Assembly: GCF_000973085.1 (NCBI RefSeq)
Contig: NZ_CP011280.1
Span: forward strand, 460,642 to 524,641
Length of the DNA: 64,000 nucleotides
Reading direction: 5' to 3'
Source: Sneathia vaginalis
Lineage (GTDB): Bacteria > Fusobacteriota > Fusobacteriia > Fusobacteriales > Leptotrichiaceae
Of this stretch, positions 8,625 through 34,845 are shown one piece after another. Every line of letters begins with the position of its first letter. Position 1 is the stretch's first letter. A model generated the notes under the pieces. The model had not been told where the DNA came from, searched no databases, and was given only the letters and a program-made list of their open reading frames with translations. The position numbers and the translations under genes were made by a program.

Positions 8625-9080
8625 ATGTTATTTAATAAAGAAGATATATATTTTAATGTAGAAGCAGAAAATAGAGAAGACCTAATTAGAAAAATGTCCA
8701 AAATTTTTAAAGAACAAGGATATATTAAAGATGGTTATGAAGAATCATTAATTGAGAGAGAAAAAAATTATCCAACAGGATTAAATTTTGAAAAGTACTT
8801 CGTTGCAATACCTCATACAACATATTCATTAATAAATAGTCAAAGAATAGTGTTTGTTAGGTTAAAAAATGAAGTTGAGTTTGGAGAAATGGGTACAAAT
8901 GAAAAACAATTAAAAGTTAAAGTAGTCCTATTCCTATTAATCAAAAAAGGTGAAGAACAAGTAACCGTCTTATTAAACTTAATGAAAATTTTAGGCGATG
9001 AAGATTGCTATAATACACTAGAAAAAAGTGAAGATAAAGAAGAAGTATATAACATATTAGTAAATAAATATGGAAAATAA
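8625..9080 (+). CDS. PTS EIIA component, galactitol/fructose type
   Basis: A 151-residue soluble phosphotransfer protein. The phosphorylated histidine is H64 in FVAIPHTTY, typical of the PTS EIIA type 2 family. It passes phosphate from HPr to the adjacent EIIB. It starts at ATG 8625 with AGGAGA, 14 bases after the regulator, and is followed 12 bases later by EIIB. The order EIIA-EIIB-EIIC as separate genes is that of the Gat family; the name gatA would describe the family, not a proven substrate. Confidence 0.88.
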   Translation: MLFNKEDIYFNVEAENREDLIRKMSKIFKEQGYIKDGYEESLIEREKNYPTGLNFEKYFVAIPHTTYSLINSQRIVFVRLKNEVEFGEMGTNEKQLKVKVVLFLLIKKGEEQVTVLLNLMKILGDEDCYNTLEKSEDKEEVYNILVNKYGK

Positions 9081-9092
9081 TAGGAGGTATAT

Positions 9093-9371
9093 ATGAAAAG
9101 AATAGTAGTAGCATGCGGTTCAGGAATAGCAACATCACAAACAGTTGCATCAAAGATTAATTCAATGTTAGAAGATGATGGGATTAGTGCAACAGTAGAA
9201 TCTGTTGATATAAAGGCATTAGAAAATATTATATCACAAGTTGATATTTATGTAACAATAGTTCCAGGATCAGAAACATATGGTAAGCCAACAATAAATG
9301 GTATTAAATTTTTAACAGGTCTAGGTATGGAAGAAGAATACGAAAAATTAAAAGAATTAATTGCAAAGTAG
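9093..9371 (+). CDS. PTS EIIB component, galactitol type
   Basis: A 92-residue EIIB protein starting MKRIVVACGSGIATSQ; the phospho-acceptor is C8 in the P-loop-like ACGSG motif. It transfers phosphate to the sugar bound by EIIC. There is a strong ribosome site AGGAGG just upstream. The length is normal for GatB (about 94). It is soluble and cytoplasmic, working with the flanking EIIA and EIIC. Confidence 0.9.
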   Translation: MKRIVVACGSGIATSQTVASKINSMLEDDGISATVESVDIKALENIISQVDIYVTIVPGSETYGKPTINGIKFLTGLGMEEEYEKLKELIAK

Positions 9372-9384
9372 AAGAGGAGTATTT

Positions 9385-10719
9385 ATGTTAAAACAAGTAG
9401 TAGACTATATTTTAGGACTAGGTCCAGCAATATTTTTACCAATAATTATGATAATAATTGGTATAATAATCAGAATGAAAATTAAAAGAGCAATTTTAGC
9501 AGGTATAACTTTGGGTATAGCATTTACTGGTATGTCATTGATACTAGGTTTCATGTTTGAAACAATAAGCCCAGTTGCTGCAAAATTCGTTGAAACAACA
9601 GGTATACATTTAAATACAGTAGATGTAGGATGGGCACCAATGTCAGCAATAGCTTGGGCATGGCCATATGCATTATTAATGTTCCCTATTCAAATAGTTA
9701 TTAACCTAATACTATTAGGATTTAACTTTACAAATGTATTAAATGTAGATATGTGGAATGTTTGGGGTAAAATTTTTACAGCAACAATGGTTATAGCTAT
9801 AACTCATAGCTTAATATTAGGATTTGTAGCTGCAGTTATACAAATAATATTAGAATTAAAAACAGCAGAAGTTACTCAAAAGAGAATATATAAAATAACT
9901 AGTATTCCTGGTGTAACTTGTACACACTATATGACATTACAATGTGCAATGATGGAACCAATTAATAAGGTATTAGACTTAATACCTGCAATAAAAAACA
10001 GTACATTTGATTCAGAAAAATTAAAATCAAAAATAGGTGTATTTGGTGAAAATTCAGTTATGGGATTCATAATAGGTGGTCTATTTGCATTGGTTGCAAG
10101 ATACTCAGTAAGTGAAACATTACAAATAGCAATTAAAGTTTCTGCATCACTAGTTCTATTCCCTATGGTAGCAAAATTATTCATGCAATCATTAGCACCA
10201 ATTGCAGATGCAGCAGGTGCATACATGAAGAATAAATATAAAGATAGAGAAATATATATAGGTCTAGACTGGCCATTCTTAGCAGGGCAAGCAGAATTAT
10301 GGGTTATCTCTATCTTAATAGTACCAGTATCAATAGTACTAGCATTAGTATTTTCAAAATTAAATCTAAATACAATATTACCTCTAGCAGGTATAGTAAA
10401 TGTAATAGTTGTTGTACCAGCAATGATCGTTAGTAAAAAGAATTTAATAAAGATGTTCATATTAAGTGTAATATTTACACCAGCATATCTAATAGTATCA
10501 TCAAGTTTTGCACCTTATGTTACAGAACTTGCAAGACAAGTAGGAACTATTGATATACCAAGTGGACAAATGATTAGTTACTTTGGTGTAGAAGCTCCAA
10601 TATTTAGATGGGTGTTAGCAAATGGCTTAGCACTTAGATGGCAAGGATTATTAGGTGTTGTTATATTTATAGTCCTATACGCAGTATTCTATATCACAAT
10701 GAGAAAGGAAAATGAATGA
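9385..10719 (+). CDS. PTS EIIC component, galactitol family permease
   Basis: A 444-residue permease with roughly nine or more hydrophobic segments; GatC-family landmarks include GPAIFLPIIMIIIGI near the N-terminus and FWGVEAP-like YFGVEAPIFRW near the C-terminus. I set the start at ATG 9385, which follows GAAGAGGAG; the open frame extends to 9361 but that would overlap gatB. It imports an unidentified sugar or polyol, phosphorylating it at C1 by analogy with galactitol. Its stop overlaps the aldolase start by 4 bases, so uptake and cleavage are translationally coupled. Confidence 0.88.
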   Translation: MLKQVVDYILGLGPAIFLPIIMIIIGIIIRMKIKRAILAGITLGIAFTGMSLILGFMFETISPVAAKFVETTGIHLNTVDVGWAPMSAIAWAWPYALLMFPIQIVINLILLGFNFTNVLNVDMWNVWGKIFTATMVIAITHSLILGFVAAVIQIILELKTAEVTQKRIYKITSIPGVTCTHYMTLQCAMMEPINKVLDLIPAIKNSTFDSEKLKSKIGVFGENSVMGFIIGGLFALVARYSVSETLQIAIKVSASLVLFPMVAKLFMQSLAPIADAAGAYMKNKYKDREIYIGLDWPFLAGQAELWVISILIVPVSIVLALVFSKLNLNTILPLAGIVNVIVVVPAMIVSKKNLIKMFILSVIFTPAYLIVSSSFAPYVTELARQVGTIDIPSGQMISYFGVEAPIFRWVLANGLALRWQGLLGVVIFIVLYAVFYITMRKENE

Positions 10720-11372
10720 ACGAAGAATTAAAAAAAGAATTATTAGAAGTTGCAAGACAAGCACAAAGAATAGGCTTATGTAAACACAAATCAGGTAATT
10801 TTAGTGTTAGAATACCTGGAACAAATAAGCTATATGTCACACCATCTGCAATTGATAGAGAAGAATTAACTGAAGATGATTTATGTATAATGGACTTAGA
10901 TGGTAACGTTCTTTATCATAAAGAAGGAGTTAAGCCATCAAGTGAAACTATGATGCATTTGGAAATATATAAAGAAAGAGAAGATGTAAAAGCTATAGTT
11001 CATACACATTCTAAAATGGCAACAGCATTTGCTGTATTAGCAAAACCTATACCAGGTGTAATATTCGAAGCAGCAACATTAGGTTTAAAAGAAGGTTATG
11101 TACCAGTTGCAAAATACGCAAGACCTGGTACAGTTGAATTATCTAAATCTGTAATAGAACCTATAAGAATATCTGATATGGTATTATTAGAAAAACATGG
11201 AGTTGTAGCAGTAGGATGCGATATAAAAGATGCATTTTTAAAAGCACAATATGTAGAAGAAATAGCAGAAATATACTATATGACATTAATGATAAATAAA
11301 GGAGTTGAACCGCCAAGATTTTCAGTTGAAGAATTAAACAAGTGGAAATATCCAGAAAAATTTTCAAAATAA
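10716..11372 (+). CDS. Class II aldolase/epimerase, L-fuculose-phosphate-aldolase type
   Basis: A 218-residue zinc enzyme of the AraD/FucA family. The ligands line up with FucA: E77 (PSSE), H96 and H98 (VHTHS), H161 (LEKHGVVAVG). FucA cleaves L-fuculose-1-phosphate to DHAP and lactaldehyde, while related enzymes act on other ketose-1-phosphates or epimerise ribulose phosphates. Because the upstream PTS would deliver a 1-phosphorylated sugar and there is no dehydrogenase or isomerase gene in the operon, direct aldol cleavage of an imported ketose-1-phosphate is the simplest reading. The exact substrate is not deducible. Confidence 0.85.
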   Translation: MNEELKKELLEVARQAQRIGLCKHKSGNFSVRIPGTNKLYVTPSAIDREELTEDDLCIMDLDGNVLYHKEGVKPSSETMMHLEIYKEREDVKAIVHTHSKMATAFAVLAKPIPGVIFEAATLGLKEGYVPVAKYARPGTVELSKSVIEPIRISDMVLLEKHGVVAVGCDIKDAFLKAQYVEEIAEIYYMTLMINKGVEPPRFSVEELNKWKYPEKFSK

Positions 11373-11384
11373 AGAGGTTGTGTG

Positions 11385-12371
11385 ATGAAAAAAATAATAA
11401 ACAAAAAGGAAGACTACGTTAAAGAATTGGTAAATGGAATAGTAAAAGCTCATAGTGATAAAGTAAAATTATTAAACGATGACTTTAGAATTTTAGTTAA
11501 AAAGGAAAAATCACAAGATAAAGTAGGGCTTGTAACTGGAGGTGGAAGTGGACATTTACCATTGTTTCTAGGTTATGTAGGAGAAGGAATGTTGGATGCC
11601 TGTGCTATAGGTAATGTATTTGCATCACCATCAAGTAAAAAGATGTATGAAGCAATAAAGTACGTTGACTCAGGGAAAGGTGTATTATGCGTATATGGAA
11701 ACTATGGTGGAGACAAGATGAATTTTTCTATGGCAAGAGATGAAAGTAGTTTTGATGATATTGAAGTTGAAGAAGTAATAGTTAGTGATGATATTGCTTC
11801 ATCAAATGATAAAAAATCAAGAAGAGGAGTCGCAGGATTAGTATATGCATATAAGATAGCAGGGACATTAGCAAAAAAAGGATATACTTTAAAAGAAGTA
11901 AAGTCTAAAACAGAAAAAGCGTTAGAAAATATTAGAACTATGGGTATTGCACTAACACCATGCATAGTTCCAGAAGTAGGAAAACCTACATTTACCATCT
12001 TAGAAAATGAAATGGAAATAGGTATGGGTATACATGGTGAAAAAGGAATTAATACTACTAATATGAAAACAGCAAAAGAAATTGTTGATATTATACTAAA
12101 TAAAATAGAAACAGAAATAAAATTAGAAAAAGGAGATAAAATTTCTGTATTAGTTAATGGTTTAGGTGCTACATCATTAGATGAGCTATATATAGTATAT
12201 AATGAAATATATGATAGATATAGCAAAATAGGTGTTAATATATTAAAACCACTTATAGGTGAATATGCAACTTCAATGGAAATGGCAGGATTATCAATAA
12301 CAGTATTTAAGTTGGATAATGAAACTGAAGAATTACTTTTAAGTGAAGATGAATTAACATTTATGAAATGA
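11385..12371 (+). CDS. dhaK: Dihydroxyacetone kinase subunit DhaK
   Basis: A substrate-binding subunit of the two-component dihydroxyacetone kinase. Visible features: GGGSGHLP (52-59), the NYGGDK loop with D110, and the covalent substrate-binding H217 in GMGIHGEKG, matching His218 of E. coli DhaK. I prefer ATG 11385 (7 bases after AGAGG) to the GTG just before it. DhaL follows; no DhaM is visible in the operon, so either DhaM is encoded elsewhere or the phosphoryl donor differs. Related DhaK proteins act on tetruloses and other C3-C4 ketoses, so the substrate could be a product of the aldolase rather than dihydroxyacetone itself. Confidence 0.92.
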   Translation: MKKIINKKEDYVKELVNGIVKAHSDKVKLLNDDFRILVKKEKSQDKVGLVTGGGSGHLPLFLGYVGEGMLDACAIGNVFASPSSKKMYEAIKYVDSGKGVLCVYGNYGGDKMNFSMARDESSFDDIEVEEVIVSDDIASSNDKKSRRGVAGLVYAYKIAGTLAKKGYTLKEVKSKTEKALENIRTMGIALTPCIVPEVGKPTFTILENEMEIGMGIHGEKGINTTNMKTAKEIVDIILNKIETEIKLEKGDKISVLVNGLGATSLDELYIVYNEIYDRYSKIGVNILKPLIGEYATSMEMAGLSITVFKLDNETEELLLSEDELTFMK

Positions 12372-12380
12372 GGCATAATA

Positions 12381-12968
12381 ATGAGCGTTGATATAAAAGA
12401 AATATTTAAAAAAATTTATGGCAATATACATACTAATAAAGAATATTTAATTAAATTAGATCAAGAATTTGGAGATGGAGACTTAGGTTTAACTATGGAT
12501 GAAGGATTTAATGCAGTATGTGATTATGTACAAAAAAATGAAATAGCTGATAAAGGTATATTATTTAAGGATATAAGCAGTTCATTTAACGAAGCAGCAC
12601 CTTCATCATTAGGAACAATAATTTCTATGTTTTTCATGGGAATGGCAAGGGAATTAAAAGGTAAGACTGATCCTACAAAGGAAGAATATATATATTCATT
12701 ACAAAAAGGATTAGAATACTTGAAATCTAAAATAGATACTAAATTAGGTGATAAGACAATTTTAGACTCATTAGAACCAGCTATTGTAGAATTTAATAAA
12801 ACTAAGGATAAAATAAAGGCATATGAAAGTGCAAAAGAAGGAATGGAAGAAACAAAAAATATGATTTCTAATCAAGGTAGAGCAAAGTATCATGGAGAAA
12901 AAACATTAGGTCATATAGATGGTGGAGCTTATGTGTCATACTTGGTATTTAAGAGTATTTCCGAATAA
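12381..12968 (+). CDS. dhaL: Dihydroxyacetone kinase ADP-binding subunit DhaL
   Basis: The nucleotide-binding subunit pairing with DhaK. The two-magnesium aspartates D27, D32 and D34 (LDQEFGDGDLG) correspond to the D-x4-D-x-D motif of DhaL, and the family C-terminal segment appears as YHGEKTLGHIDGGA. The 195-residue length is slightly short of E. coli DhaL (210). In PTS-dependent systems DhaL keeps bound ADP that is rephosphorylated by DhaM; whether that applies here is open because no DhaM gene is present. Last gene of the operon. Confidence 0.92.
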   Translation: MSVDIKEIFKKIYGNIHTNKEYLIKLDQEFGDGDLGLTMDEGFNAVCDYVQKNEIADKGILFKDISSSFNEAAPSSLGTIISMFFMGMARELKGKTDPTKEEYIYSLQKGLEYLKSKIDTKLGDKTILDSLEPAIVEFNKTKDKIKAYESAKEGMEETKNMISNQGRAKYHGEKTLGHIDGGAYVSYLVFKSISE

Positions 12969-13031: not shown

Positions 13032-14342
13032 CTAAATAAATGCTTCAATAATATATCTTAATACAAATATTATTGCTAATATATAAACAACTAATGATAC
13101 TTGTTTTCCTTTTCCAGTTATTAATTTAATAATAGCATAAGAAACTATACCGAATACTATACCATTTGCAATAGAGTATGATAAAGGCATCATAATTATT
13201 GCTAAGAATGCTGGTAGACCTTCAGTGAAATCAGAGAAGTCTATTTTCAAGATATTACCTATCATGAAAAGTCCAACAACTATTAATGCTGATGCTGTAG
13301 CACATGGAGGTATGATTGCAAATATAGGTTCAAATATTAGAGCTACTATAAACAATATAGCTGTAACTATTGCAGTTAAACCTGTTTTACCACCTTCAGC
13401 AACACCAGCTGCACTTTCAACGAATGTAGTAACAGTTGAAGTACCAAGGCAAGCACCTATTGATGTACCTATTGCATCTGCAAGTAAAGCTTGTCTTGCT
13501 TTAGGTAAGTTACCATTTTCATCTAACATATCAGCTTTTGATGCAACACCAACTAATGTTCCTACTGTATCAAATAAGTCTACGAATAAGAATGCAAATA
13601 TAGCAATAACCATATTAAATGTTAATATATTATGAAATTCAAACTTAAAGAATATTGGTGATATACTTGATGGTAAACCTATTATTGAACTAGGTAATTT
13701 TGTAACACCAAAAGGTATAGCAAGTAAAGTAGTAATTAACATACCTAATAATATTCCACCAGGTATTCTTTTAACTAATAGGAATAAAGTAATAAATATT
13801 CCAAAAATTGTAAGTATTGCAACAGGGCTCATAATATTACCTAATGTTAAAGGTATACCCTTTGCAGGAACAACTAAACCTGATTGAATTAAACCAATGA
13901 AGGCAATAAATATACCAATACCAGCACTTACTGCATTCTTTAATGACATAGGTATAGAGTTAACTATAGTTTCACGAACCTTAGTCATTGTAAGAACTAT
14001 GAAAATTAAACCTTCAATTAAAACTGCTGTTAGTGCAAATTGCCAACTTAGACCCTTACCAAGTACAATAGTATATGCAAAGTATGCATTAAGTCCCATA
14101 CCAGGAGCAAGTGCGAATGGATAATTAGCATATATACCCATAACTACGGTAGCAATAAAAGCTGAAATAGCTGTTGTAGTAAATACAGCACCATGGTTCA
14201 TACCAGCATCAGATAATACTGCAGGGTTGACTATTAAAATGTACGCCATAGTCATAAAAGTTGTGATACCTGCTAAAATTTCAGTTTTAACAGTAGTGTT
14301 ATTTTCTTTAAGTTTAAAGAAATTTTCTAAAAATGTTTTCAT
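13032..14342 (-). CDS. NCS2-family (AzgA/PbuG-like) purine base permease
   Basis: A 436-residue membrane protein with many hydrophobic segments. Landmarks of the guanine/hypoxanthine/adenine permease branch: LAGITTFMTMAYILIVNPAVLSDAGM at the N-terminus, ALAPGMGLNAYFAYTIV, LFVDLFDTVGTLVGVA and GTSTVTTFVESAAGVAEGGKTGL. It imports a purine base by proton symport in known members. ATG 14342 is preceded by TAGGAGG; an in-frame extension to 14384 lacks a ribosome site. It sits behind a ykkC-class riboswitch leader of about 210 bases, so expression should respond to a purine-linked metabolite. Confidence 0.92.
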   Translation of the reverse strand: MKTFLENFFKLKENNTTVKTEILAGITTFMTMAYILIVNPAVLSDAGMNHGAVFTTTAISAFIATVVMGIYANYPFALAPGMGLNAYFAYTIVLGKGLSWQFALTAVLIEGLIFIVLTMTKVRETIVNSIPMSLKNAVSAGIGIFIAFIGLIQSGLVVPAKGIPLTLGNIMSPVAILTIFGIFITLFLLVKRIPGGILLGMLITTLLAIPFGVTKLPSSIIGLPSSISPIFFKFEFHNILTFNMVIAIFAFLFVDLFDTVGTLVGVASKADMLDENGNLPKARQALLADAIGTSIGACLGTSTVTTFVESAAGVAEGGKTGLTAIVTAILFIVALIFEPIFAIIPPCATASALIVVGLFMIGNILKIDFSDFTEGLPAFLAIIMMPLSYSIANGIVFGIVSYAIIKLITGKGKQVSLVVYILAIIFVLRYIIEAFI

Positions 14343-14401
14343 AAAACAAATCCTCCTATAGATCTTTCTTAAAAAAAAACTCAAAAGGAAACTTGTCCAC
14401 T

Positions 14402-14451
14402 AAATATAAAGCCTAGAAGGGTAGGCTTCAAGCGAAACCTACCTCCTAGGC
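14402..14451 (-). terminator. Expression-platform hairpin of the riboswitch
   Basis: On the minus strand GCCTAGGAGG-TAGGTTTC pairs with GAAGCCTA-C-CCTTCTAGGC around loop GCTT, about 18 pairs with one bulge, followed by TTTATATTT. Its 5' arm is the conserved 3' end of the aptamer, so aptamer folding and this hairpin exclude each other. Confidence 0.65.
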
Positions 14452-14525
14452 TTTTATCCTTTAGGTGTAGTGCAAATATATATGCACCTGTGTCGCTCGG
14501 TCACATGAAAGAACCCTAGACACAC
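14441..14525 (-). promoter_or_regulatory. ykkC-class riboswitch aptamer upstream of the purine permease
   Basis: Conserved ykkC blocks can be read in order on the minus strand: GTGTGTCTAGGGTTC (14524-14510), ACCGAGCGACAC (14501-14490), a GGTGCA...TGCACT side hairpin, then AAGGATAAAAGCCTAGGAGG (14461-14442). ykkC RNAs include the guanidine-I class and the subtype-2 classes for ppGpp, PRPP and (d)ADP. The purine permease downstream makes a purine-related subtype (PRPP or ppGpp) more likely than guanidine, but ligand-specific bases need alignment. Ligand binding is expected to block the overlapping terminator, giving an ON switch. Confidence 0.8.
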
Positions 14526-14560
14526 TTTCTCTTTTGAGTTTATTATTCATTAACAAGTAA

Positions 14561-14589
14561 ATGATAGCAGAGAAAAAAGTATTTGTCAA
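14561..14589 (-). promoter_or_regulatory. Promoter of the riboswitch/permease transcript
   Basis: On the minus strand a perfect TTGACA (14589-14584), a 17-base spacer and TATCAT (14566-14561), starting transcription just before the enclosing stem of the leader. Confidence 0.75.
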
Positions 14590-14754: not shown

Positions 14755-16068
14755 ATGAAATACAAGATAAAATCAAATGGAAAAGCACTAATACCTTTTA
14801 TTATTTTCATAGGAATGTATCTTTTTACAGGATTTTACTTAACTTATTCTGGAGAGAAGTTAGCGTTTTACAAAGTAAATTCCCCTATATTCGTAATACT
14901 AGGTATAATATCAGCATTTATACTCTTTAAAGGAGATATATCAAGTAAATTTAATAATTTAATAAAGGGTTGCGGAGATGAAAATATTTTAATAATGTGT
15001 CTTATCTATCTATTAGCAGGAGCATTTGCAAGTGTTACAAAAGCAACAGGTAGTGTAGAATCAACCGTTAACTTAGGTATGAGTATTATTCCAGTTAAAT
15101 ATTTAGTTGCAGGAATATTTTTAATGGCATCATTTATATCTATTTCAACAGGTACATCTGTTGGAACAATAGTAACTGTTGGACCATTAGCTATAGGTTT
15201 ATCTGAAAAATCAGGAATATATTTACCATTAGTATTAGGAGCTCTAGTAGGTGGAGCAATGTTTGGCGATAATTTATCAATAATATCAGATACAACCATT
15301 GCAGCAACAAGAACACAAAATGTTAATATGAGTGATAAATTTAAAATGAATTTAAAAATTGCATTACCAGCAGCTATAATAACATTTTTGATATATATGT
15401 TTAGTTTAAATAATATAAATACTGTAAATATTGGTTCTGTAAATTATAGTCTTATTAAAGTAGTACCATATATATTAGTATTGGTACTAGCGGTATCAGG
15501 AGTAAATGTTTTTGTAACATTGACTATAGGAACAGTATTTTGCGGGATTATAGGGATTAGCACTAATGTATTTGGTGTAGTTGGATACTGTTCTAAAATA
15601 TATGAAGGCTTTAATAATATGTTTGAAATCTTCTTATTATCTTTTCTAACAGGAGGTTTAGCATATATGGTTAGAAAAGAAGGAGGTATAGACTATATCA
15701 TAGAAAAAGCAAAGAAGTGCTTAAAAGGTAGTAAAACAGCAGAATTAGGTATATCAGCTTTAATTTCAATTCTAGATATTGCAGTGGCTAATAATACAGT
15801 TGCTATAATAATAGCAGGGCCTGTAGCAAAAGAAATATCAAATGAATATAATGTGGATCCAAGAAGAGTAGCATCGTTATTAGATGTATTCTCATGTGTA
15901 TTCCAAGGTTTAATTCCATATGGAGCACAAATATTAATAGCAACAAGTTTAACAAAGGGTATGCTTAGTCCCTTTGCACTAATACCATATTTCTGGTATC
16001 AGTTTATACTAGCAGTTTTTGCTATTTTATCAATCTACATACCATATTCTAATTTAAAAAATAACTGA
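14755..16068 (+). CDS. NhaC-family Na+/H+ antiporter
   Basis: A 437-residue inner-membrane protein with about eleven hydrophobic segments. NhaC-type landmarks: SISTGTSVGTIVTVGPLAIGLS, LGALVGGAMFGDNLSIISDTTIAATRTQN and the C-terminal repeat half IAVANNTVAIIIAGPVAKEIS. It exports sodium, or exchanges related cations or a dicarboxylate, for protons; members have varied substrates, so the ion is uncertain. ATG 14755 follows GACGAGGTAAAC. It is monocistronic, with a clear terminator after it. A TATAAT lies at 14721-14726, but I see no convincing -35. Confidence 0.87.
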   Translation: MKYKIKSNGKALIPFIIFIGMYLFTGFYLTYSGEKLAFYKVNSPIFVILGIISAFILFKGDISSKFNNLIKGCGDENILIMCLIYLLAGAFASVTKATGSVESTVNLGMSIIPVKYLVAGIFLMASFISISTGTSVGTIVTVGPLAIGLSEKSGIYLPLVLGALVGGAMFGDNLSIISDTTIAATRTQNVNMSDKFKMNLKIALPAAIITFLIYMFSLNNINTVNIGSVNYSLIKVVPYILVLVLAVSGVNVFVTLTIGTVFCGIIGISTNVFGVVGYCSKIYEGFNNMFEIFLLSFLTGGLAYMVRKEGGIDYIIEKAKKCLKGSKTAELGISALISILDIAVANNTVAIIIAGPVAKEISNEYNVDPRRVASLLDVFSCVFQGLIPYGAQILIATSLTKGMLSPFALIPYFWYQFILAVFAILSIYIPYSNLKNN

Positions 16069-21395: not shown

Positions 21396-21987
21396 TAGTT
21401 TCTCCTCCAATCTTAAGTATTTCTTCAAAATTAATTTGGCCTTGTCTTATCAAACTATATTTACCATCAAGATATGACACTATTGTTGAGGGAATGCCAG
21501 ATAAATTTTTATCTGTTGTGATTATTAGAGGAACATTTTTTAAAAGTTCATCTGATATATTGCTAATATTTGTGACAGGGGGTTCGCCAGATATATTAGC
21601 ACTAGTAGTCATAAGTATTCCACCAACTCTTCGTATAATATCTCTTGTTAAGTCATTATCAGGTATTCTTATTCCAACAGTAGGACCTAGTAAGTCAACA
21701 AATTCTTTTTTTGTCTTACATACAATACTTAATGCACCTGGTAGAAAATGTTTGATAAGATTTAAGTCAATATCGTCTGTTAATTTAAAAAAATCATTAT
21801 AATCAGATACTAAAGCCAAAATCTTTTTATTTTTATCTCTTTTTTTTAAGAGATATAGTTGTTCTATTGCTTTTTTTGTAGGTATTGCACCTAAACCATA
21901 AACAGTATCAGTTGGTACTATTATACAACGACCTTCTAGTAATAACTTAATACCATCTTCTATCTTATTTTTATTCATTTGATTCAT
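21382..21987 (-). CDS. tsaC: Threonylcarbamoyl-AMP synthase (Sua5/YrdC/TsaC)
   Basis: A 201-residue enzyme that makes threonylcarbamoyl-AMP for the essential t6A37 tRNA modification. Family landmarks: IIVPTDTVYGLGAIPTKKA near residue 20, LKKRDKNKK, FLPGALSIVCK, VGIRIPDN and MTTSANISGEPP. It has the short TsaC form without the C-terminal Sua5 domain. Its start overlaps the end of prs by 17 bases; an internal ATG at 21978 is an alternative start. Cytoplasmic. Confidence 0.92.
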   Translation of the reverse strand: MNQMNKNKIEDGIKLLLEGRCIIVPTDTVYGLGAIPTKKAIEQLYLLKKRDKNKKILALVSDYNDFFKLTDDIDLNLIKHFLPGALSIVCKTKKEFVDLLGPTVGIRIPDNDLTRDIIRRVGGILMTTSANISGEPPVTNISNISDELLKNVPLIITTDKNLSGIPSTIVSYLDGKYSLIRQGQINFEEILKIGGETNENG

Positions 21988-22948
21988 CTATATCATGAGG
22001 AAGAGCAAATAGGTCGCTTATAGGTTCTTCATTATATATTCTATGTATAGTTTCAGCAAACATAGTGCTAGCAGAAACTATAGATAATTTATCAAATAAT
22101 TGTTCTTCTTTTAATTGAATTGAATCAGTTACAATAATCTTTTTAAAAGCAGAATCTTTTAGTCTTTGTACAGCTTGTCCAGAGAATACTGGGTGAGTAG
22201 CACATGCATAAACTTCAGTAGCACCAGCTTCTTTTAGTGCAACAGCAGCGTTACATATAGTACCAGCTGTATCGATTATATCATCTATTATTATTGCTTT
22301 TTTACCTTCAACGTTACCTATAATATTCATTACTTCACAAACATTAGCTTGTGGTCTACGTTTGTCTATTATGGCAAGTGGTGTATGTAGCCATGTAGCA
22401 AGATTTCTTGCTCTTTTAACTCCACCAACGTCTGGAGATACAACTACAGTATCGTTAGGCGTAAATCCTTGGTTTATAAAATACTTTGCAAATATAGGTA
22501 AAGCTTCCATATGATCAACTGGTATATCGAAGAATCCTTGTATTTGTTTTGCGTGTAAATCCATTGTAACAACTCTTGTTGCTCCAGCGGTTGTTAATAA
22601 ATCTGCTACTAATTTAGCTGTGATTGGTTCACGAGGACTAGCTTTTCTATCTTGTCTTGCGTAACCATAGTATGGAATAACTGCTATTATTTCAGAAGCA
22701 GAAGCTCTTTTTAATGAGTCTATAAACACTAATAATTCCATTAAACTTTGATTTACTGGTTTTGAAGTTGATTGCACTACGAATACTTTACAACCTCTAA
22801 CAGTGCAATTGGCTTTAACAAAAGTTTCTCCATCAGCGAAACTTATGATATCTCTATCACCAAGCTTAGTACCCAATTTATCGGCTATTTTACTTGCAAG
22901 TTTAGCACTAGATGTACCAGCAAAAATTTTTATTTCGTGTTCTTTCAT
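21971..22948 (-). CDS. prs: Ribose-phosphate pyrophosphokinase (PRPP synthetase)
   Basis: Makes PRPP from ribose-5-phosphate and ATP for purine, pyrimidine, NAD and histidine synthesis. Signature stretches are intact: IAVIPYYGYARQDRKASPREPITAKL, VVTMDLHAKQIQGFFDIPVDH, and the PRPP-binding loop AIIIDDIIDTAGT. I place the start at ATG 22948 (protein MKEHEIKIFAG, 325 residues); a GTG four codons upstream is the alternative. It sits 19 bases downstream of glmU. If the ykkC RNA at 14441-14525 senses PRPP, this enzyme makes its ligand. Confidence 0.95.
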   Translation of the reverse strand: MKEHEIKIFAGTSSAKLASKIADKLGTKLGDRDIISFADGETFVKANCTVRGCKVFVVQSTSKPVNQSLMELLVFIDSLKRASASEIIAVIPYYGYARQDRKASPREPITAKLVADLLTTAGATRVVTMDLHAKQIQGFFDIPVDHMEALPIFAKYFINQGFTPNDTVVVSPDVGGVKRARNLATWLHTPLAIIDKRRPQANVCEVMNIIGNVEGKKAIIIDDIIDTAGTICNAAVALKEAGATEVYACATHPVFSGQAVQRLKDSAFKKIIVTDSIQLKEEQLFDKLSIVSASTMFAETIHRIYNEEPISDLFALPHDIDESNE

Positions 22949-22967
22949 CTTTTCTAACACTCTCTTT

Positions 22968-34688: not shown

Positions 34689-34845
34689 TAATATTAAAGA
34701 ACATTATTGATAATTTTTATACATACCTAGTAGATATAAAAATTGTAAAGATATGTTTGGCCGTAGAGCTTATTCTTATCGCTGATTATTTAAGGTAATA
34801 AGGCATATTGAAGAAGGTAATATCGAAATTAAAGGAGGAAAAAAT
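34689..34845 (+). promoter_or_regulatory. Structured leader before rpsM, candidate S4-responsive (alpha-operon type) element
   Basis: A 157-base gap inside an otherwise tight cluster. Complementary segments: AATTTTTATA (34712-34721) with TATAAAAATT (34735-34744); ATATG (34751-34755) with CATAT (34804-34808); GCTTATT (34768-34774) with AATAAG (34797-34802). In E. coli the same position (before rpsM) holds the S4-binding alpha-operon pseudoknot. Function here is inferred from position and pairing only. Confidence 0.5.

Follow-up and report, generated by a model that had tools for sequence, protein, structure and literature searches.

The window, a 64,000-nucleotide stretch of the Sneathia vaginalis genome, carries on its minus strand a purine permease gene preceded by a leader of ykkC type, which raises the question of what ligand this RNA senses, in which direction it controls the gene, and how it came to stand there in a member of the Fusobacteriota. 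PRPP riboswitches, one of the ykkC subtypes, have so far been reported as a device of Firmicutes, mainly for purine making: the description of the class drew on 257 Firmicutes examples, most of them located before purine synthesis genes and codA, and the main text of that report makes no mention of permease contexts (PMC5912903). A literature search, with most subscription journals outside its reach, returned no report of such an RNA, referred to as subtype 2b, in Fusobacteria or Sneathia. The reading that we favor, with a probability of roughly 0.8, is that the leader constitutes a singlet PRPP ON-riboswitch of subtype 2b, acting by antitermination on an AzgA-like permease gene, and that the pair was probably acquired from a Parvimonas-like Firmicute. 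The RNA class is known; the phylum and the proposed transfer across phyla are new here.

Organization of the leader

All parts of the leader lie on the minus strand, in the order promoter, short leader, aptamer, terminator-like hairpin (T1), U9 tract, AGGAGG, and the ATG at 14342. The promoter, TTGACA-17-TATCAT with an extended -10 element (TG), occupies positions 14589-14561 and matches the consensus at 11 of 12 positions, and the congener displays TTGACA-17-TATTAT at the equivalent place. On the other side of this promoter, and adjoining it, a divergent gene coding for an NhaC-like antiporter is found (14755-16068, plus strand). The aptamer (14532-14433) is complete, with the helices P0, P1, P2, and P3, and the three ykkC blocks announced by the first-pass annotation are all present and in order: CTAGGGTTC at 14519-14511, ACCGAGCGACAC at 14501-14490, and GGATAAAAGCCTAGGAG at 14459-14443. 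The leader as a whole folds with an energy of -65.5 kcal/mol, against -38.9 +/- 4.3 in shuffled sequences (z = -6.2). No tandem guanine aptamer was detected upstream of the 2b aptamer in the leader, nor any in the genome.

Assignment to ykkC subtype 2b

A default Rfam scan of the window gives no ykkC match at the gathering threshold, the only match at that level being an S4-Fusobacteriales ribosomal protein leader located elsewhere (34743-34815, plus strand). When the threshold is relaxed, the guanidine-I model RF00442 aligns over its full length with positions 14530-14441 (minus strand) with 47.6 bits and an E value of 1.3e-7. As this score falls below 63 bits, the gathering score set for guanidine-I, the default scan misses the aptamer, and the blank result was therefore rejected as proof of absence; more generally, RNAs of this kind are missed by the Rfam ykkC model at its default threshold.

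Subtype models were built from at least 120 loci of named genomes, gathered by the three-block pattern and grouped according to the first protein encoded downstream and the tail following P3; the downstream genes were named by eye, except in the permease cluster, whose link to the window was established by BLAST. The 2b model comprises 34 Firmicutes loci preceding purine synthesis genes and permeases, the 2a (ppGpp) model 23 loci preceding ABC transporter, branched-chain amino acid, and glutamate synthase genes, and the 2d model 36 loci, the window and its congener being left out of all three. The window aptamer reaches 93.2 bits with the 2b model (E 2.5e-25), a score that is favored by the partial selection of the 2b set on its tail motif, compared to 65.0 bits with 2a and 43.8 bits with 2d; subtype 2d was ruled out by this score. 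The first-pass annotation had named a guanidine-I assignment by covariance models as the outcome that would speak against a purine-linked ligand, and the models turned out the other way.

The ykkC membership itself is borne out by the presence of P1, P2, P3, and the core blocks. In addition, the two ends of the aptamer pair through the P0 helix, GAAA (14529-14526) with UUUC (14437-14434), the latter also lying within the stem of T1. This helix is found in all four leaders compared, those of the window, the congener, and two Parvimonas azgA genes, and is invariant, hence displays no covariation.

Predicted PRPP contacts

For the T. mathranii aptamer, a proven PRPP binder, the solved crystal structure shows A5, G6, G48, C49, C77, C78, G96, A101, G104, and G105 to be ligand contacts (PMC6031431). 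This numbering was transferred through the Thermoanaerobacter locus L110, an inferred correspondence in which each expected letter fits. In the alignment of these positions, a check that the first-pass annotation had proposed, the window shows the equivalents of A5, G6, G48, C49, C77, C78, G96, G104, and G105, the missing one being A101, a pyrophosphate contact lost through a one-base deletion. A101 is a weakly conserved purine in the published consensus and no defining position, and the same gap occurs in about ten other 2b loci, including that of Parvimonas purC, so that it does not exclude the window RNA from the subtype. Besides, 4 of the 47 near-invariant 2b columns differ in the window; none of them is a contact, and two are both halves of one P3 pair.

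Two of the retained positions discriminate between ligands. Equivalents of G48 and C49 lie at 14496-14495, placed by alignment within CCGAGCG with their roles taken from PMC6031431, and C49 is the residue that separates subtype 2 from guanidine-I (PMC6031431); the window has this pyrimidine, C, at 14495. The equivalent of G96, the residue governing specificity for PRPP versus ppGpp, lies at 14446 (alignment column 118). Replacing G96 by A produces a ~40,000-fold switch in specificity, from PRPP to ppGpp, and ppGpp aptamers have A, C, U, or no residue at this position, not G (PMC6031431). All 34 2b rows have G there, as does the window, compared to a non-G in 21 of 23 ppGpp-type rows. Judged from the sequence, the markers C49 and G96 favor PRPP over ppGpp or guanidine as the ligand, and the aptamer very probably senses PRPP; together with the 2b score, they lend weight to the purine-linked ligand that had been proposed beforehand.

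A ppGpp riboswitch of subtype 2a that would raise purine uptake during the stringent response is the nearest competitor in terms of ligand, since a single base distinguishes the two specificities (PMC6031431) and the 2a model still gives 65.0 bits. That score is nevertheless 28 bits worse than the 2b one, position 96 is a G, and the gene context fits 2b loci, all of which makes the ppGpp reading improbable.

Compared to known 2b RNAs (Sherlock et al. 2018, PMC5912903; 6CK5, PMC6031431), the window RNA thus shares the P0 architecture, both specificity residues (C49 and G96), and almost the full set of ligand contacts, and has a terminator-like hairpin that likewise overlaps P3. It differs in belonging to the Fusobacteriota and not to the Firmicutes, in preceding an importer gene in a genome devoid of purF, in being a singlet without guanine aptamer, in having an extra long-range helix, and in being one base shorter at A101.

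Alternative folds and the proposed switch

In isolation, the window aptamer folds into P0, P1, P2, and P3 within 0.4 kcal/mol of the minimum, and the isolated aptamers of the window, the congener, and the two Parvimonas leaders all adopt P0-P3 at or at most 1 kcal/mol from it. Downstream, the hairpin T1 (14459-14402), followed by a U-rich tail, contains the P3 3' strand, the G96-G105 segment, and the P0 3' strand of the aptamer, in agreement with the earlier claim of a terminator hairpin reusing the aptamer 3' end. As T1 takes up the P3 and P0 3' strands, the aptamer and T1 folds are mutually exclusive. In all four leaders, once they extend through T1, the T1 fold surpasses the aptamer fold in stability by 17-21 kcal/mol; the ligand must act during transcription.

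Both folds find support when the four leaders are compared. In P1, four compensatory pairs distinguish the leaders of the Sneathia genus from those of Parvimonas. Further, column 109 of alignment A4 has two partners, column 97 in P3 and column 143 in T1, and the three changed together, reading G-C-G in Parvimonas and A-U-A in the Sneathia genus; by this three-way change, the exclusion of P3 by the terminator, a feature of 2b RNAs, is found in these leaders as well. The tail that follows T1 in the window, UUUAUAUUUA, has no clean U-tract, and T1 alone may therefore terminate weakly. Another hairpin (14430-14407), obtained from a terminator scan, was rejected as the terminator; it is part of the 3' half of T1, could arise with the ligand bound, and has a weak tail.

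Known PRPP switches are ON switches with a P3-overlapping terminator, among which the H. modesticaldum purB switch is proven (PMC5912903). On this model, PRPP bound by P0/P3 during transcription would hold the P3 and P0 3' strands and thereby block T1, and RNA polymerase would read through into the permease gene; when PRPP is lacking, T1 would form and transcription would stop.

A second element encloses the aptamer. Its 5' arm, AAACUCAAAAG (14541-14531), pairs with CUUUUGAGUUU (14387-14377) in an 11 bp long-range helix that ends on the U9 tract (14379-14371), the 3' arm and this tract (14387-14371) forming a possible second terminator, T2. This helix is kept in the congener as UAACUUAAAAG/CUUUUAAGUUA, and in Parvimonas the equivalent place is taken by AUAACUC/GAGUUAU, followed by a U-tract; 2 of the 7 shared pairs are compensated among the four leaders. 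With P0 open, the helix could extend through GAAA, the P0 5' strand, and its core is predicted in both states, including that with P0 formed. As a survey of other 2b leaders yielded no consistent equivalent, the helix was rejected as a general feature of PRPP leaders and looks specific to the azgA lineage common to Parvimonas. From the predicted folds, it may act as a second terminator or as a protecting clamp.

This element gives rise to another reading, about as improbable as the ppGpp one, in which the long-range helix with the U9 tract, and not T1, would be the deciding terminator, or in which the leader would work as an OFF switch. The U9 tract is indeed the best U-tract of the window leader, the helix has been kept by two compensatory changes, and with P0 open it would reach through the P0 5' strand. 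Against this, the helix core is predicted with P0 formed as well, other 2b leaders show no consistent equivalent, and the ON direction and P3-overlapping terminator of the known PRPP switches argue for T1.

The permease and purine supply

The permease gene (14342-13032, minus strand) starts with ATG, is preceded by AGGAGG, and codes for a protein of 436 aa. As claimed in the first-pass annotation, it is an NCS2 permease (PF00860, E 3.7e-40), and its closest solved relatives in the PDB, AZG1 and AZG2, place it among the AzgA-type members. A single further NCS2 gene exists in the genome; it has a far higher PF00860 score and is not retrieved as a homologue by the window permease. Converging on the permease gene is an apparent operon for galactitol-type PTS IIA, IIB, and IIC, a class II aldolase, and DhaK/DhaL (8625-12968, plus strand).

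Purine genes of the genome were checked through purF, the two NCS2 genes, and the literature. purF is absent from both the window genome and the congener, the only partial match lying inside a longer protein read as GlmS. Sneathia amnii is reported to lack genes for de novo purine synthesis and to depend on adenosine and hypoxanthine (PMC3535699). A base-starved cell unable to make purines would accumulate PRPP, because its phosphoribosyltransferases would be left without their second substrate, and base uptake would be raised in response. With PRPP expected to build up under base shortage, a PRPP-driven importer would make sense, and the RNA most likely gates purine import in this purF-less genome, PRPP being read as a signal of missing bases and not as a building block. 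A gene for ribose-phosphate diphosphokinase, which makes PRPP, shares the strand of the riboswitch and lies ~7.5 kb away from it (21971-22960, minus strand).

Gene context also bears on the remaining ykkC ligands. A variant sensing an adenine nucleotide, such as the nucleoside-diphosphate-type 2c, would share the P0 extension (PMC5912903), and a nucleotide signal would likewise suit a purine importer; with nearly all PRPP contacts kept, the nearest aptamers preceding purC and azgA, and 2c RNAs reported before NUDIX hydrolase genes (PMC5912903), this reading stands slightly below the two preceding ones. A guanidine-I riboswitch shares the P1-P3 fold and the conserved CUAGGGUUC and AAAAGCC blocks, and RF00442 matches over its full length, but the class has no P0, A and not C at position 49, and another ligand, and since the match is 15 bits under the gathering score, true copies in four other fusobacterial genomes reach 75-87 bits, and the downstream gene is no guanidine gene, its probability is negligible.

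Distribution and origin

Among 98 Fusobacteriota genomes, 2b-type RNA occurs only in the window genome and its congener, hence in the Sneathia genus alone, as fits the unusual phylum pointed out in the first-pass annotation. The other four matches of the 2b model are guanidine-I RNAs, scoring 51-58 bits with it and 75-87 bits with RF00442; these true guanidine-I riboswitches (L002-L005) come from four other genomes in two genera.

The window permease shares 82% identity with the congener protein and 73% with those of Parvimonas, whereas no other permease of the phylum exceeds 59%, and those of its own family lie at about 52%. In a tree of 85 AzgA proteins, the window, the congener, and the two Parvimonas sequences form one clade (100/100), in which the window permease is sister to Parvimonas AzgA, apart from the other members of the window's own family. 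In Parvimonas parva (L236) and Parvimonas sp. oral taxon 393 (L237), the azgA gene is immediately preceded by a 2b RNA in a colinear leader, sharing the promoter, the aptamer, T1, and the long-range helix plus U-tract. Unlike that of the window, the Parvimonas aptamers depart from the consensus at CATAGGG and CCAAGC, and the Parvimonas genomes possess purF and a second 2b RNA before purC. The protein tree alone leaves the direction of transfer unfixed, but the RNA is widespread in Firmicutes and absent from other Fusobacteriota, which points to transfer into the Sneathia genus; on these sequence comparisons, riboswitch and permease most likely entered it together from a Parvimonas-like Firmicute. 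This apparent horizontal acquisition had been overlooked by the first-pass annotation, and with the Parvimonas pair the locus lends itself well to testing whether a riboswitch can move between phyla along with its gene.

The same annotation had presented control of uptake instead of synthesis as out of the ordinary. While the AzgA-type permease supports uptake, the arrangement is not exceptional: a 2b RNA stands directly before an AzgA-type permease gene in at least 10 named non-fusobacterial loci and in at least 17 genomes of the order of Parvimonas, and as the combination recurs in Firmicutes, the gene context of the window is not unique.

The purine (guanine) riboswitch RF00167 typically turns expression off in response to the imported base. 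It is present in 78 of the 98 Fusobacteriota and in none of the Sneathia genus, and at least 21 azgA genes in 19 Fusobacteriota genomes have it within about 400 bases upstream, by coordinate count; there, within one phylum, an unrelated RNA precedes members of this permease family. The regulatory logic would thus differ, an acceptor in excess turning the gene on in Sneathia, versus a base that is present turning it off in its relatives. A relative genus (g6, 13 sampled species) has neither kind of riboswitch, and replacement in the strict sense therefore does not follow. The broader scenario, in which a cross-phylum cassette of riboswitch and transporter gave a host-associated purine auxotroph a precursor-sensing ON switch for uptake, with two successive terminators in one leader, in place of the base-sensing one of many of its relatives, is tentative, and we lean against it in that complete form.

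The wider survey also returned subtype 2-like ykkC RNAs outside the Firmicutes, in MAGs labelled Chloroflexi, Bipolaricaulota, and Armatimonadota (L105, L111, L044, L099). Finally, a group of ykkC 2-type RNAs from Paenibacillus, Cohnella, Brevibacillus, and Alicyclobacillus (L020, L028, L049, L062, L066, L078) precedes a xanthine phosphoribosyltransferase-like gene, several of them following a guanine-aptamer-like end.
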